In this document: positions 27,111-54,284 of the stretch, one piece after another
Layout of the letters: each line of letters begins with the position of its first letter
Position numbering within the stretch: position 1 is the stretch's first letter
NCBI RefSeq assembly: GCF_024345575.1
Contig: NZ_JAGQBJ010000001.1
Span: forward strand, 248,001 to 312,000
Direction: 5' to 3'
From: Cyanobium sp. Morenito 9A2
Lineage (GTDB): Bacteria; Cyanobacteriota; Cyanobacteriia; PCC-6307; Cyanobiaceae
DNA: 64,000 bases
Position numbers and translations under genes: made by a program
The notes under the pieces: generated by a model
Seen by the model: only the letters and a program-made list of their open reading frames with translations
What the model was told of the DNA's origin: nothing
Databases searched by the model: none

Positions 27111-28474
27111 GGCAGCGATTCCAGCAGCAGCTTGAGCAAACCGATCAGGGCGGCCGCGCCGATCACCTTCAGCACCGACCAGCGCCAGGCCAGCAACGCC
27201 CAACCGGCCGCCAGCATCAGCACCAGCGCGGGAACGTCGAAGCGGCCGCCGCCGCCCTCGGGCCAGAGCACGTGGCCGGCGAAGAACACCGCCAGGTTGA
27301 CGATCACCCCCACCACGGCGGCGGTGATCGCCGTCAGTACACCACCGAGGCGCAGGTCCTCGCGGCTGGCCTCCACCAGCGGCCCGCCCGCGAGGATGAA
27401 CACGAACGAAGGCAGGAAGGTGAACCAGGTGACGGTGAGCGCCGCCGCCACCGCCGAGCTCCACACCTGGGTTTCACCGAACAGCGGCGTGTTCCAGCCC
27501 CCCATGAAGCCCACGAAGCTGACCACCATGATCAGCGGCCCGGGGGTGGTCTCCCCCAGGGCCAGGCCGTCGATCATCTGGCTGGCGGAGAGCCAGTGGA
27601 ACTGGTTGACCGCCGCCTCGCTCACGTAGGGGAGCACCGCATAGGCGCCGCCGAAGCTGACCAGGGCCACCTGGGTGAAGAAGCGCGCCATGGCCACCAG
27701 GCCTCCATTCCAGCCGTTGATCGCCGTGAGCCAGGCCAGGGGCAGACCCAGGGCCAGAGCCGCCGCCAGCAGGGTGAGCGCCAACCGCCGCTGGCTGAAA
27801 CGGGCGTGCTCCGGTGTGGGCGAGTCATCGCCATGGAGAATCTCCAGGTTCGATTCCGGGACCGCCCCGCCGCTGGCTGCGCCATGGCGCCCCCCACCCC
27901 GGAACAGCTCGGGGCGGAGCCGGCCACCGATCCAGCCGATCAGGGCGGCGCCGGCGATCAGGGCCGGAAACGGCAGCTTCAGCAGCGTGAGGGCGATGAA
28001 GGCCGCCACGGCGATCGCCCCGAGCACGGCGTTGTGGAGGGTGCGCTGGCCCACCCGCCAGGCCGCCTGCAGCACGATCGCCGTGACCGTGGGCTTGAGC
28101 GCCCAGAACACCGCCGCCAGCGCCGGCAGCTGACCCCAGACCACGTAGACCGTGGAGAGGGCGATCAGCAGCAGCAGCGAGGGCAGGATGAACAGGCTCC
28201 CCGCCACCAGGCCTCCGGCCACCCCGTGGTTGAGCCAGCCGATGTAGGTGGCCAGCTGCTGGGCCTCCGGCCCGGGGAGCACCATCGCGTAATTGAGCGC
28301 ATGCAGAAAACGGCGCTCCGAGAGCCAGCGCCGGCGGTCCACCAGTTCGCTGTGCATCAGGGCCACCTGGCCGGCGGGACCGCCGAAGCTGATCAGACCG
28401 AGCTGCAGCCAGAAGCGTGCGGCCTCGCCAGGGGAAACGCTGCGGCTCAAGGGAAGGGAAGGCGTTCGGCCCAC
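27107..28474 (-). CDS. chrA: Chromate transporter, two-domain
   Basis: A 455-residue protein with two related CHR domains. The N-terminal one contains FWLQLGLISFGGPAGQVAL and LNYAMVLPGPEAQQLATYIG, and the C-terminal one FTQVALVSFGGAYAVLPYV and GLALGETTPGPLIMVVSFVGF. About ten membrane helices. ChrA proteins export chromate (or handle sulfate-like anions). A sulfur-metabolism region follows, which fits competition between chromate and sulfate, but the real substrate is unknown. It is divergent from the serine acetyltransferase gene. Confidence 0.9.
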   Translation of the reverse strand: MGRTPSLPLSRSVSPGEAARFWLQLGLISFGGPAGQVALMHSELVDRRRWLSERRFLHALNYAMVLPGPEAQQLATYIGWLNHGVAGGLVAGSLFILPSLLLLIALSTVYVVWGQLPALAAVFWALKPTVTAIVLQAAWRVGQRTLHNAVLGAIAVAAFIALTLLKLPFPALIAGAALIGWIGGRLRPELFRGGGRHGAASGGAVPESNLEILHGDDSPTPEHARFSQRRLALTLLAAALALGLPLAWLTAINGWNGGLVAMARFFTQVALVSFGGAYAVLPYVSEAAVNQFHWLSASQMIDGLALGETTPGPLIMVVSFVGFMGGWNTPLFGETQVWSSAVAAALTVTWFTFLPSFVFILAGGPLVEASREDLRLGGVLTAITAAVVGVIVNLAVFFAGHVLWPEGGGGRFDVPALVLMLAAGWALLAWRWSVLKVIGAAALIGLLKLLLESLP

Positions 28475-28608
28475 CTAACTGCAGGGTCAGCGGCGGTCCG
28501 TGTTGCCTGGACTACGTCCGCCCCCGCCCTGGCCGGTTCTTCCCCCCGCAGGCCATGGCAGGATCGCGACAGCCTCGGCCAGCCCATCGACGGGGTTCAT
28601 TTCGCGCC

Positions 28609-29598
28609 ATGGTGCCCCAGGAGCTTCCTTTCCCCATACGGATCGTCGAGCAGCCCGAGGGCTCCAGGGCCGGGGCCGGTGGCAGCCCCTGCACCTGGGA
28701 CCTGGGCGGCATCGTCGAGGCGCTCTCCCAGCCCACCAGCCACACCGGCCTCGACTGGGCCCGCCACCATCCCTTCCCGCTGCCCTCGCCGGAGTTGCTC
28801 CAGCGGGTGTTCACGGGCCTGCGCTCGGTGCTCTTCCCCCACCATTTCGGTGACCCCGACCGCTCCGGCGCGGGCCTCACCTATTTCATCGGCCACACCC
28901 TTGATCAGACGCTCCAGTTGCTCGCCGAGCAGGTCAAACGGGAGCTCTGGCTCAGCGGCAGTGCGCTCCACCTTGATCTCAATGCGCTTCAGCTCCAGGC
29001 CATCGAGCTGACCGGACAGTTCGCCGCGCAGCTCCCGGGCATCCGCCGCCTGCTGGAGGGGGATCTGCTGGCGGCTCACCTGGGGGATCCCGCCGCCAAG
29101 AACCTCGACGAGGTGTTGTTCTGCTACCCGGGCATCCGGGCGATCACCACCCATCGCATCGCCCACGAGCTCTACCGGCTCGGACTGCCCCTGATCGCGC
29201 GGATCATCTCCGAGCTGGGCCACTCCGAAACGGGCGTCGACATTCACCCCGGGGCCTCCATCGGCGCCGAGTTCTTCATCGACCACGGCACCGGCGTGGT
29301 GATCGGCGAGACCTGCATCATCGGCGAGAGGGTGCGGCTCTACCAGGCGGTCACCCTCGGGGCCCGCAGTTTCCCCCGCGACGAGAGCGGCGCCCTGATC
29401 AAGGGTCAGCCCCGCCATCCGATCGTCGAGGACGACGTGGTGATCTATGCCGGCGCCACGGTGCTCGGGCGGATCACCATCGGCGCGCATTCCACCATCG
29501 GCGGCAACGTCTGGGTCACCCAGAGCGTTCCGGCGGGAAGTTTCGTGAGCCAGGCCAAGGCCCGCCAGGACACCTTCGATGGCGGTGCGGGGATTTGA
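28609..29598 (+). CDS. Serine O-acetyltransferase (EpsC/CysE-type)
   Basis: A 329-residue enzyme making O-acetylserine for cysteine synthesis. The N-terminal helical region ends with LDEVLFCYPGIRAITTHRIAHELYRLG, then the hexapeptide-repeat domain: ETGVDIHPGASIGAEFFIDHG, TGVVIGETCIIGERVRLYQ, HPIVEDDVVIYAGATVLGRI and HSTIGGNVWVTQSVPAGS. The longer length and the FFIDHGTGVVIGET loop suggest the EpsC type common in cyanobacteria. The ATG at 28609 was chosen over the upstream 28417 because similarity begins near it. It opens the sulfur region. Confidence 0.88.
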   Translation: MVPQELPFPIRIVEQPEGSRAGAGGSPCTWDLGGIVEALSQPTSHTGLDWARHHPFPLPSPELLQRVFTGLRSVLFPHHFGDPDRSGAGLTYFIGHTLDQTLQLLAEQVKRELWLSGSALHLDLNALQLQAIELTGQFAAQLPGIRRLLEGDLLAAHLGDPAAKNLDEVLFCYPGIRAITTHRIAHELYRLGLPLIARIISELGHSETGVDIHPGASIGAEFFIDHGTGVVIGETCIIGERVRLYQAVTLGARSFPRDESGALIKGQPRHPIVEDDVVIYAGATVLGRITIGAHSTIGGNVWVTQSVPAGSFVSQAKARQDTFDGGAGI

Positions 29599-49965: not shown

Positions 49966-50165
49966 GCGCCAACGACATTTCCAATGCCAAAGACCCTGAC
50001 CTGCGGGCCTCCTTAGGTGCCCTGCGGCGGGCGGCCCAACAGGCACGTATGACAGCCATCCAGACTCAGACGAACCTCGTGATCGTCAAGGATGGGCGTA
50101 TGCAGCGCATTTCGGCAGATGAACTTCGCCAACAGGCAAAAGCCGAGCAGACCCCGCAGGCATGA
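49962..50165 (+). CDS. Small antitoxin-like protein
   Basis: A 67-residue protein (DPDLRASLGALRRAAQQARMTAIQTQTNLVIVKDGRMQRISADELRQQ in blocks) with a helical N-terminus and a short beta hairpin. Proteins like this follow zeta-family toxins in many genomes, so it is likely the antitoxin, but this family has no detailed study I can name. The start overlaps the zeta stop, and its stop overlaps the hsdM start (ATGA): three coupled genes. Confidence 0.72.
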   Translation: MSANDISNAKDPDLRASLGALRRAAQQARMTAIQTQTNLVIVKDGRMQRISADELRQQAKAEQTPQA

Positions 50166-51775
50166 CCACCACCAACCAAAAGCAACTCGGCAGCACGCTT
50201 TGGGCGATCGCCGACCAATTGCGCGGGGCGATGAACGCGGACGACTTCCGCGATTACATGCTCTCCTTCCTCTTCCTGCGCTACCTGTCCGACAACTACG
50301 AGCTGGCAGCGAAAAGGGAGCTGGGCAGCGATTACCCAGAGCTGGAACATGACAGCTATCTGGTGCCACTGAAGATTTGGTATGAACTCAACCCTGAGGA
50401 TGTTGATGCTTTCGAAAAGCAGATGCGCCGGAAAATTCACTATGTGATTCAGCCAACCTACCTATGGAACAGCATTGCCCATCTGGCGCGCACCCAGAAT
50501 GGTGAACTCCTGAACACGCTTCAGGCTGGCTTTCACTACATCGAAAACGAATCCTTTAAGAGCACGTTTCAGGGGCTGTTCGCGGAGATCAACCTGGCTT
50601 CCGACAAGCTGGGGCGCACCTACGCGGATCGCAACGCCAAGCTCTGCACCATCATCACCAAGATTGCCGATGGGCTGTCGGAGTTTTCGACGGACATCGA
50701 TTCACTTGGGGATGCTTATGAGTATTTGATCGGGCAGTTTGCCGCTGGTTCGGGCAAGAAGGCGGGAGAGTTCTACACCCCGCAGCAGATATCCGACATC
50801 CTCTCCGGCATCGTCACCCTCGACAGCCAGGAACCCAAAAGCGGAACGAAGCAGCGACTGGAGAGCGTGCTGGACTTCGCCTGTGGCTCCGGCTCTTTGC
50901 TTCTCAACATCCGTACGCGGGTGAAAAAAGCGGGTGGCACCATCGGCAAGATCTTTGGCTAGGAAAACAACATCACCACCTACAACCTCGCCCGCATGAA
51001 CATGCTGCTGCATGGGGTGAAAGACACGGAATTTGAGATCTTCCACGGCGACACCCTGCTGAACGAATGGGACATGCTGCGCGAGCAGAACCCGGCCAAA
51101 AAGCCAAGCTTTGATGCCATTGTTGCCAACCCGCCCTTCAGCTACCGCTGGGAACCCACCGACGCCCTGGCCGATGATGTGCGCTTCAAAAGCCACGGCA
51201 TGGCCCCGAAATCCGCCGCAGACTTTGCTTTTCTGCTCCACGGCTTTCACTTCCTGAAAGACGAAGGCGTGATGGCCATCATCCTGCCCCATGGAGTGCT
51301 GTTCCGTGGCGGAGCCGAAGAACGCATCCGCACCAAGCTGCTCAAAGACGGCCACATCGACACCGTGATTGGCCTCCCCGCCAATCTCTTCTACTCCACC
51401 GGCATCCCGGTCTGCATTCTCGTGCTCAAGAAGTGCAAGAAGCCCGATGACGTGCTCTTCATCAATGCCGCCGAGCACTTTGTCAAAGGGAAGCGCCAGA
51501 ACCAATTAACTCAGGAGCACATCAACAAGATCCTCCACACCTATCAGCAGCGGGAGGCAGAACCTCGTTACTCCCGCCGCGTGGAGATGGCGGAGATTGA
51601 AAAGAACGACTTTAATCTGAACATCTCCCGCTACATCAGCACGGCCGTCGCCGAGGAGGAGATCGACTTGCTGGCCGTTCATTCCCAGCTGGCCTCCCTG
51701 GAGCAATCGATCCGTGATGCCCGGGACAAACACAATGGGTTCCTGGAGGAATTGGGGCTTCCCCCTTTGCTGTGA
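50162..51775 (+). pseudogene. hsdM: Type I methylase gene, interrupted by TAG
   Basis: One frame of 1614 bases encodes a full HsdM but contains TAG at 50960-50962 (codon 267). Before it lies the N-terminal helical domain and DNA methylase motif I (VLDFACGSGSLLLNI). After it, in the same frame, come ENNITTYNLARMNMLLHGVKD, the catalytic NPPF motif at about codon 323 (IVANPPFSYRW) and the C-terminus. The usual sequence there is GQEKNITTYNL, so CAG (Gln) to TAG is the likely change. The truncated product lacks the catalytic motif. Restriction may be inactive or depend on suppression. Confidence 0.88.
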
Positions 51776-51799: not shown

Positions 51800-51988
51800 C
51801 CATGACCCTGCCTGCCCCGGCGTTTACATCGGCGAAGCCGAACCCCTTGGGAGCCGCCTGGAGCAGCACCAGGCCAAGGAGTTCTGGACCACGCCTAGGC
51901 CTTCACCTCTCAGGATGGCTACCTCAACAAGGCCCCTGCCCACCCTGCTTGCTCTACGCACCTGGGTGTGAGCCACCTGTGGCACTAA
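51800..51988 (+). pseudogene. GIY-YIG nuclease remnant
   Basis: Just after hsdM the sequence encodes, in two frames, parts of a GIY-YIG nuclease: GVYIGEAEPLGSRLEQHQAKEFWT in one (51819-51893) and AFTSQDGYLNKAP in another (51900-51940), stopping at TAA (51986-51988). The typical order is GVYILIGEAE...R, then FWxxAVAFTSKDGxLNKAH. A frameshift separates them, and both ends are missing. Confidence 0.72.
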
Positions 51989-52010
51989 CAGATGCAACCG
52001 CCCCAGCCCC

Positions 52011-52382
52011 TTGGCCACCCGCGCCGTCTACTCCTTCACCGGCTTTCCCAGCGCTTCGGTGCGCCATCTCTACCTCCACCACGACGGCTACCCCACCGGC
52101 GCCGCCTGGCGGTTCGCCACGGCCCGGCGCCTCAGCCCTGAGGCCGCCTGCTTCCTGGCCTCGTTTCTGGCCACCCAGCCCCAGGCGGAACCTCTGAGCG
52201 CCCCCGGGCAGGCCGCCGATGCCGAGTACCGCTACCGGGTGCAGTTCCTCCCCGGCACCGATCTCCAGCTCGAGGTGCAGTGCTGGCGTCGGCTGCCGGG
52301 CGGCACCATCTGGCAGCCCCGTTGCGGGCCGATGACCCTGGAGCTGTTCATCCGGCGCTTCCTGCCTGGGGAACCCCCGTGA
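52011..52382 (+). CDS. Conserved hypothetical protein
   Basis: A 123-residue soluble protein starting at a TTG (52011): TRAVYSFTGFPSASVRHLYLHHDGYPTGAAWRF, later DAEYRYRVQFLPGTDLQLEVQCWRRLPGG and PMTLELFIRRFLP. The HHDGYPTGAA segment is conserved in picocyanobacterial homologues that I remember, with no function assigned. It follows the nuclease remnant and precedes psbA on the opposite strand. Confidence 0.65.
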   Translation: MATRAVYSFTGFPSASVRHLYLHHDGYPTGAAWRFATARRLSPEAACFLASFLATQPQAEPLSAPGQAADAEYRYRVQFLPGTDLQLEVQCWRRLPGGTIWQPRCGPMTLELFIRRFLPGEPP

Positions 52383-52513
52383 TCCCGCCCGTCGATCTCA
52401 GCGCGCTTCCGCGGTTGTGGGCTCCACCGGCGAGACGGCCAGCGCGGCGAGGGCCATCGGTCGGCGGCTCCGGGCGAAAGGGTGGAAACGGACGGACAGG
52501 TGGATGAGGAAGA

Positions 52514-52537
52514 CGGGCCCGGAAGGATCCGGGCCCG
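52514..52537. terminator. Perfect GC-rich hairpin downstream of psbA
   Basis: CGGGCCCGGA (52514-52523), loop AGGA, TCCGGGCCCG (52528-52537): a perfect 10-base-pair stem, 46 bases past the psbA stop. No run of T follows on either strand, so termination may be weak or the stem may stabilise the mRNA end. It could serve both convergent genes. Confidence 0.55.
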
Positions 52538-52582
52538 GCAGGAATTCAAAGAGCGGATGGCTGGGCGGGAGTCAAAGTCCGA

Positions 52583-53659
52583 CTAACCGATCGCTGGCGC
52601 GCTGAGCGCCACGGGGGGCGCGGCAGACGCAGCCAGATCCATAGGGAAGTTATGAACGTTGCGCTCATGCATCGTCTCGATCCCCAAGCCGCCGCGGTTG
52701 AGGATGTCAGCCCAGGTGTTGATCACGCGGCCCCGCTGATCGAGAACGGAGTGGTTGAAGTTGAGGCCGTTGAGGTTGAAGGAGAAGCTCACCACCGCCA
52801 GGGCGGCGAACCAGATGCCCACCACCGGCCAGGCGGCCAGGAGGAAGTGGAGTGAGCGGCTGTTGTTGAAGGAGGCGTACTGCACGATCAGGCGGTCGAA
52901 GTAGCCGTGGGCGGCCACGATGTTGTAGGTCTCCTCTTCCTGGCCGAACTTGTAGCCGTTGTTGAGGGATTCGGTTTCGGTGCTCTCCCGCACCAGCGAA
53001 CTGGTGACGAGCGAGCCATGCATGGCGGCGAACAGGGCGCCACCGAAGACACCCGTCACACCGAGCATGTGGAACGGGTGCATCAGCACGTTGTGTTCCG
53101 CCTGCAGCACCAGCATGAAGTTGAAGGTGCCGGAGATGCCCAGGGGCATGCCGTCGGAGAAGGAGCCCTGGCCGATCGTGTAGATCAGCAGCACGGCGGT
53201 GGCGGCGGCCAAGGGCGCGGAGTAGGCGAGGGCGATCCAGGGGCGCATCCCGAGGTGGTAGCTGAGTTCCCACTCCCGGCCCATCCAGCAGAAGATGCCG
53301 ATCAGGACGTGGAAGATGATCAGCTGATACGGGCCGCCGTTGGAGAGCCATTCATCGCGGCTGCTGGCGGCCAGACCGGATAGACGCGCAGACCGACGGC
53401 GTTGCTGGAGGGCACCACGGCCGCTGTGATGAGGTTGTTGCCGTAGAGCAGACCGCCGGAGACGGGTACGCGGATGCCGTCGATGTCGACGGGGCGCGCC
53501 GATGAAGGCGATCACGAAGGCGATCGTTGCCGTCAGCAGGGTGGGGATCATCAGCACGCCGAACCAACCCACGTAGAGGCGGTTGTCGGTGCTGGTGACC
53601 CAGTCCTTGAAGGCGGTCCAGGGGTTGGCCCTTGGGGGGCGCAGGGACGTTGTCGTCAA
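52583..53659 (-). pseudogene. psbA: psbA, low-oxygen D1' type, frameshifted
   Basis: A D1 protein gene of about 359 codons from a TTG at 53659 ([19 protein letters not shown]). Between about 53491 and 53374 the reading frame is displaced. The D1 sequence ([36 protein letters not shown]) lies in another frame and is replaced by an Arg-rich run, so a 2-base loss (or 1-base gain) near 53491-53494 and a 1-base loss near 53374 compensate each other. The Mn-cluster ligands that can be checked are present (D170, E189, H332, E333, H337, D342, A344), as are Y161, H190 and H198. Residues 80, 158 and 286 are Ala, Leu and Ala, the positions diagnostic of the low-oxygen form. As sequenced, the 40-residue garbled section would destroy function. 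Confidence 0.85.
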
Positions 53660-53780
53660 CGCTCGGGCACGGAGAACCGGCGTCGCCGGGCTGAACCGGT
53701 TGGGACGACCAACCGCTTCGGCCACCGCCGTCCTTTCTAACAACACTACTGTAAAAATGTCATAAAAATTTAAGAGTGAT
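53660..53780. promoter_or_regulatory. AT-rich shared promoter region (psbA / secreted protein)
   Basis: Divergent spacer between psbA (start 53659, reverse) and the secreted protein gene (start 53781). The end near 53738-53780 is AT-rich (a run with ATTTTTATGACATTTTT on the reverse strand), in contrast to the GC-rich remainder, and should contain both promoters. I see no convincing regulator site. Confidence 0.45.
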
Positions 53781-54284
53781 ATGGGTGTGTCTGCTCGTCG
53801 GCGTCGCCCGAGGCTCGGCGCCCTGCTCTCGGGCGTGTTGCTGGCCCTGGTCGTCCTGCTGCAGGCGGCGCCGGCTTGGGCCGCCGTTCCCCAGCGCTGG
53901 ACCATCGCTGATTCCCATGGCGATCGCTGGCAGCTGCTGCTGGTTGAGCCGTTCGATCCCGCCGCTGCCGGCGATGGGCGCCTGCGGCTCAATGGCCTCA
54001 GCCCCGGTGCCCAGACCGATCACGCCGCCGCGCTTCAGCTCAGCGATGCAATGGGCGGGCAGTGGCCCCTGGGTAACCGCAGCGCTGAACGCGTGCCGAG
54101 CGGGGCCCCAGTGCTCCCGCCTGGATCGGCCCAGTTCGATCTGGGGCGACCGGAGCCCGGCCCCAGCGCGTTTCTCCCCCTCCAGCTGCGGCTGACCATG
54201 GCCGATGGCAGCATTCGCCGGCTGCCCATGGCTCCCGGTTGTGTGCGGGCCCTCAGCGACCTCTGGGCTGGTGCGTCCCCCTGA
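53781..54284 (+). CDS. Secreted DUF3122-like protein
   Basis: A 167-residue protein with a signal peptide ([20 protein letters not shown]) and a beta-rich mature part ([39 protein letters not shown], then [13 protein letters not shown]). It is probably the DUF3122 family of cyanobacterial extracellular proteins, which I can match only in general pattern. It is divergent from psbA and ends just before the convergent cysA copy 2. Confidence 0.6.

Follow-up and report, generated by a model that had tools for sequence, protein, structure and literature searches.

Probable recent pseudogenization, at an ancestral locus in Cyanobium, of the gene for low-oxygen D1'

The psbA gene at 52583..53659 (minus strand) of the window, as I will call the whole 64,000-nucleotide stretch of the Cyanobium sp. 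Morenito 9A2 genome considered here, is very probably a gene for the low-oxygen form of D1 (D1') that has recently turned into a pseudogene at its ancestral locus, as judged from assembled sequence. The type of gene, D1', is a known one, and the window holds a dead copy of it. As read, this copy cannot make D1'.

The copy comprises 358 codons and a stop, if a displaced stretch in its midst is included, and it begins with TTG in place of ATG. The start is ATG in 47 of 48 intact D1' copies and ACG in the remaining one. The reading frame is broken twice, both times on the minus strand. The first break lies within a run of C's (53490..53497), at about codon 56/57, where the window copy has two bases fewer than its relatives, and the second (53366..53376) lies at about codons 97–100 (E98), where it has one base fewer. 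By sequence comparison with the copy in genome G231, the two bases are missing at about 53493 and the single base at about 53369; comparison with a reference, L066, the intact copy of Aphanothece cf. minutissima CCALA 015, gives identical net offsets. The sequence-only reading had put about 40 residues out of frame, and alignment to relatives makes them 43, lying between the two losses at 53366..53497 (minus strand, ends approximate). As displaced, these 43 residues include 14 arginines, neither aspartate nor glutamate, and no stops; it is the true frame there that provides D61, codon 65, and A80. Since the net loss amounts to three bases, the psbA reading finishes in the correct frame. The window copy has no intact reading frame that gives a D1 protein, and the protein read through both breaks (52583–53752) scores 574.1 bits against the NCBIfam psbA profile and so falls short of the 596.05 cut-off; P0001, from an intact relative, reaches 721.3 bits.

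On the evidence of a protein tree and of three residues, Ala80, Leu158 and Ala286, the window copy belongs to D1' (Group 3). The earlier reading had recognized D1' by the same residues, taking Ala80 from the displaced frame, and all three are present on alignment. The corresponding positions are A/L/A in all 48 of the intact D1' sequences and G/F/T in all six of the standard D1 sequences, so that the window copy agrees with the former and differs from each of the latter: G80, F158 and T286 of standard (Group 4) D1 are absent from it. The ligands of the Mn cluster that were checked had also been called intact, and D170, E189, H332, E333, D342 and A344 are indeed all kept, as is H337. The string NFNHSVLD, which the sequence-only reading likened to D1' proteins, recurs in the D1' of 'Arthrospira' PCC 9108 (L076).

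PMC4773611 defines Group 3 as D1' of low oxygen, in which the ligand set is complete, and PMC5061849 assigns the Group 3 genes to this low-oxygen role. PMC12107152 gives L158 and A286 for PsbA2 of T. elongatus, and it gives A286 also for PsbA1 of T. vulcanus, because of which residue 286 alone is not diagnostic. Among the open-access papers searched, none was found that names all three residues (80, 158 and 286); residue 80 rests on the alignment made here.

Of the family's open D1' copies, 19 went into the protein tree. These intact copies and the window copy join, with support of 98 and away from standard D1, the proteins of Synechocystis salina (L106), Pseudanabaena (L124) and 'Arthrospira' PCC 9108, all of them typed as D1' by their residues. 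The possibility that the D1' residues arose by convergence within the family's standard D1 was rejected on the strength of this joining. Nearest to the window copy in the protein tree (support 97) are the copies of G122 and G098, and its own terminal branch is long (0.237); a nucleotide tree places it, with weaker support (75), beside G122, G142 and G098. The ORFs that follow D1' in Synechocystis salina resemble, by eye, the neighbours of psbA1 described in PMC5295598. Set against Group 3 genes (Synechocystis psbA1, T. elongatus psbA2), the window copy is alike in clade, in the three residues and in the checked Mn ligands, but unlike in being twice broken in frame, in its TTG start and in nine changes of invariant residues.

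The surroundings of the gene indicate that its locus is the ancestral locus of D1', since a flank and a divergent neighbour are common to relatives. The flank (51960–52560) was searched for in eight genomes. The stretch at 51969..52385 (plus strand), which contains an ORF at 52011–52382 with no Pfam match, lies about 2–3.5 kb from D1' in six (G006, G231, G024, G127, G104 and G306) of the other seven genomes searched that carry D1', and in the last-named three, G127, G104 and G306, the D1' copies beside it are broken ones. In G051 the flank is on a different contig from D1', and G001, the other genome of the genus, has only a 57-base match. The neighbour, at 53781..54284 (plus strand) and divergent from D1', is a DUF3122 gene (PF11320, 28.3 bits, cut-off 25). 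A DUF3122-like divergent ORF is upstream of D1' in 17 of the 22 relatives that were read, the likeness being one seen by eye. Given these similar ORFs, the DUF3122 gene may itself belong to the low-oxygen response. Also near D1' are hsdM (type I methylase, 50162–51775), split by an in-frame TAG at 50960–50962 and matching N6_Mtase in both halves, and, near the hsd genes, a small zeta-toxin-like ATPase gene (PF06414, 49447–49965).

At least one intact standard psbA is present in this genome (L001). Its other psbA matches are standard by residues (C20, C21 and C12) or, by eye, D2 (C22), and its contig-end pieces of psbA are of standard type, save for 47-base pieces, C3 and C6, that could not be typed. 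Apart from these untypable two, no second D1' was found among the psbA matches of the genome. The psbA matches of G001 are only at the level of standard D1, by level of match rather than by residues.

In order to describe change in the copy beyond its frame, an invariant column was defined as one unchanged across the 48 intact D1' and the six standard D1 sequences, intact copies being scored by leaving each out in turn. Nine of 204 scorable invariant columns are altered in the window copy (E65V, I89V, H92R, L102R, Y107S, R136H, V145L, G256D and L341M), as compared to 0 to 2 in 47 of the 48 intact copies; the exception, G288, has 7. Codon 65, V in the window copy, is E in all 48 intact D1' and in all six standard D1 sequences, and E65 is a proton-exit residue. 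Neither this change nor the TTG start figured in the sequence-only reading. Two of the broken copies discussed below, G127:C26 and G226, have no changed invariant columns.

The ratio of nonsynonymous to synonymous change (N:S) is likewise altered. Changes unique to the window copy come to about 13.8 nonsynonymous and 21.8 synonymous codons, against 123 and 928 in the pooled intact copies (means over up to five outgroups; Fisher p ~4e-5, with rows that are not independent). The resulting ratio, 0.63, exceeds that of intact relatives about fivefold, with a neutral expectation of 2.4–3.1. In 28 fixed three-sequence comparisons, the window copy has 11–20 unique nonsynonymous codons and its sister 2–8. 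A higher ratio than that of the window copy is seen in two open copies, G288 and G378b, the latter with only about one nonsynonymous and one synonymous change. The broken copies G339b (0.18) and G226 (0.11), on the other hand, have ratios like those of intact ones, so that not all broken copies can be told by this ratio. Three rows were dropped from the D1' set for the nucleotide tree and for the counts of invariant columns, three-sequence comparisons, N:S and residues: L180, which runs off a contig end, L178, a fragment of standard type, and L201, a short projection. L076 was excluded from the counts of invariant columns and N:S. Because a ratio of 0.63 is far below the neutral one, most of the branch would have evolved under selection. 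If the branch mixes a constrained and a neutral phase, roughly one fifth of its synonymous change would by my estimate belong to the neutral phase, and it is on this account that the death of the gene appears recent.

A survey of the family, with 300 or 400 genomes per search, suggests that D1' has been broken several times and that the loss in the window is not unique. Among the matches listed, from which copies truncated at both ends or matched too weakly for the lists could escape, 58 D1' copies were examined: 49 are open, 8 are broken and one, G235, is interrupted where its contig ends. Their status was taken from open frames; apparent breaks in the variable ends of many open copies are alignment noise. 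The eight broken copies among the matches listed show six different sets of lesions. Besides the window copy (minus strand), with its losses of two bases and one base, they are G127:C26 and G306, in which 23 bp are inserted at codon 48/49; G104, with the same insertion at the same place and a 121-base deletion; G120, which has a 4-bp insertion and ceases to match beyond codon 256; G226, with a 4-bp insertion; the second copy of G051, with a deletion and a stop; and the second copy of G339, with two stops. G127 also carries an open D1' copy. All of these are of the same gene type as the window copy, and G127:C26, G306 and G104 are also at the same locus, but they differ from it in their lesions (23-bp or 4-bp insertions, truncation, stops, a large deletion). 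A further broken fragment, L178 (G162:C15), is of standard-type psbA. Two open D1' copies are without the Mn ligand H332, which is Q in G288 (L051) and Y in G092 (L063), and the former has seven further changed invariant residues besides H332Q.

The 23-bp insertion (L182/L129 for G127:C26, L183 for G306 and L175 for G104) is found in 3 of the 400 genomes of a one-per-species set, once in each, when up to 2 mismatches are allowed. So sparse an occurrence led me to reject the notion of a mobile element. In the gene tree the three carriers do not come out as sisters. The D1' of G104 is mosaic: over the first 143 bases it is nearest to G249/G189, over the last 217 to G349/G271/G212. The bases adjoining the insertion agree at 95.7–97.1% among carriers and at 92.8–95.7% with most others in the group, which is thin evidence. 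The simplest reading is that the insertion had a single origin and was spread by recombination. Behind it lies what may by eye be a restart site, a purine-rich stretch with an overlapping GTG, but a split working gene was rejected: decay is simpler, because the carriers show A286S, S101N and G201C, or the 121-base deletion. It might be supposed that D1' is lost repeatedly because it is a cost, not merely because it is dispensable, its broken alleles spreading across species by recombination with the rest of the low-oxygen regulon kept, but I consider this rather unlikely. In the open-access literature, none of the titles and beginnings of abstracts listed mentions D1' pseudogenes from these cyanobacteria.

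The sequence-only reading had left two choices: that the gene had died or that an artefact hides a working one. Death is the choice now favoured, by the nine substitutions and the raised N:S ratio, and it is improbable that both indels are errors of sequencing or assembly concealing a functional low-oxygen D1', although an error at one indel or at both is conceivable. There are reasons to entertain such errors. Runs of C's are a usual site of sequencing error, and the first break sits in one; the two breaks compensate, with no stop between them; a second gene in the window (27272–29595) also shifts frame relative to G001, where it is one frame of 773 codons, and its division here between two frames may be a real break or an error; and four of the nine altered columns (89, 92, 102 and 107) cluster together with E98 in codons 89–107, where local error would cluster too. 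However, if the indels alone were wrong, the rest of the gene should look like that of a working gene, and it does not. The changes in invariant residues and the shift in N:S are substitutions, which cannot come from indel errors, and the start codon is altered as well. Furthermore, 37 of the 40 ORFs of G001 that match the window (mechanical ORFs no shorter than 120 codons, at 60% identity, with overlapping ones removed) align over at least 85% in one frame. The window is therefore not generally frame-damaged, and an assembly riddled with frame errors was rejected on the same count.

That the cell restores the frame, by programmed frameshifting or through a split product, and thereby obtains a protein that works, is hardly conceivable: two shifts would be required, E65V and H92R fall within the true-frame stretch, and 49 of the 58 D1' copies examined among the matches listed have one plain open frame, although the compensation of the breaks, which keeps a single frame, is what one would look for in such a case. 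A dead copy might also be retained as a donor in gene conversion of live psbA copies, and broken D1' alleles do seem to recombine across species, to go by the failure of the 23-bp carriers to group as sisters and by the mosaic in G104; even so, I regard a role as donor as very improbable.

A pseudogene of D1' at its ancestral locus, to return to the favoured reading, may still carry a trace of its former regulation. A possible remnant of the palindrome AACGNTANCGTT lies at 53742..53753 (minus strand), 82 bases before the TTG and in the same alignment column as in intact D1' genes; its 3 mismatches are by themselves at the level of chance, which 399 of 2000 random segments reach as their best match. 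With at most 2 mismatches, the palindrome is upstream of 43 of 48 intact D1' copies, none of six standard psbA genes and 28 of 2000 segments, each 160 bases long, drawn at random from the window, the motif having been derived from the same D1' genes on which it was scored. The 48 copies scanned include L201 and exclude L052, which has a truncated upstream region.

The palindrome is common to the promoters of D1' and of heme oxygenase-hemN (L248:1501-1517, that is G000:C1:353770-353786, and L257), and it is a candidate low-oxygen operator. In this genome a perfect palindrome core precedes a heme oxygenase gene (PF01126, 83.2 bits) and a hemN-like gene (TIGR00538, 228.7 bits, under the cut-off of 324.95; partly read and cut by the end of the locus). 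A search for heme oxygenase in 27 genomes found it in 25 at 61% identity or more, with matches of only 26–28% in G001 and G120; it is present also in the broken-D1' genomes G104, G306 and G127. The palindrome is within 200 bases in 13 of the 25 with at most one mismatch and in 23 with at most two, some of these probably by chance, and in random 200-base segments of heme oxygenase loci, true sites included, the counts are 71 and 198 of 3000. The ChlR regulon of Synechocystis 6803 consists of chlAII, ho2, hemN and psbA1 (PMC4500134). Like it, D1' and heme oxygenase-hemN in this family have a common upstream palindrome, which is thus a candidate operator of ChlR type, fitting the published low-oxygen regulon. 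Unlike it, the palindrome was derived from the present alignment, and its regulator may be a different one. The low-oxygen regulon seems to persist in this genome although its photosystem II member has died, because the heme oxygenase-hemN operon is still there with apparently the same operator.

The history of the gene would have begun with a functional low-oxygen D1' gene at the ancestral locus. In intact relatives, D1' presumably behaves as does psbA1 of Synechocystis, which is not expressed in air but is switched on when oxygen is low, its product then replacing D1 in photosystem II. The cell may have been released from the need for D1' at low oxygen, after which one disabling change would have come first, with further missense and frame damage to follow. 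Standard D1 would now serve photosystem II, and the heme oxygenase-hemN operon would have been kept, with the photosystem II branch of the low-oxygen response lost.

D1' occurs in distant cyanobacteria, and its purpose is unsettled. The family amounts to a set of natural knock-outs, in which most of the D1' copies examined are open, several have died recently and two are deprived of H332, while heme oxygenase-hemN persists in some of these genomes. Strains with and without D1' could be compared at low oxygen, and the palindrome common to both is a testable candidate for the operator of the low-oxygen regulon of picocyanobacteria.
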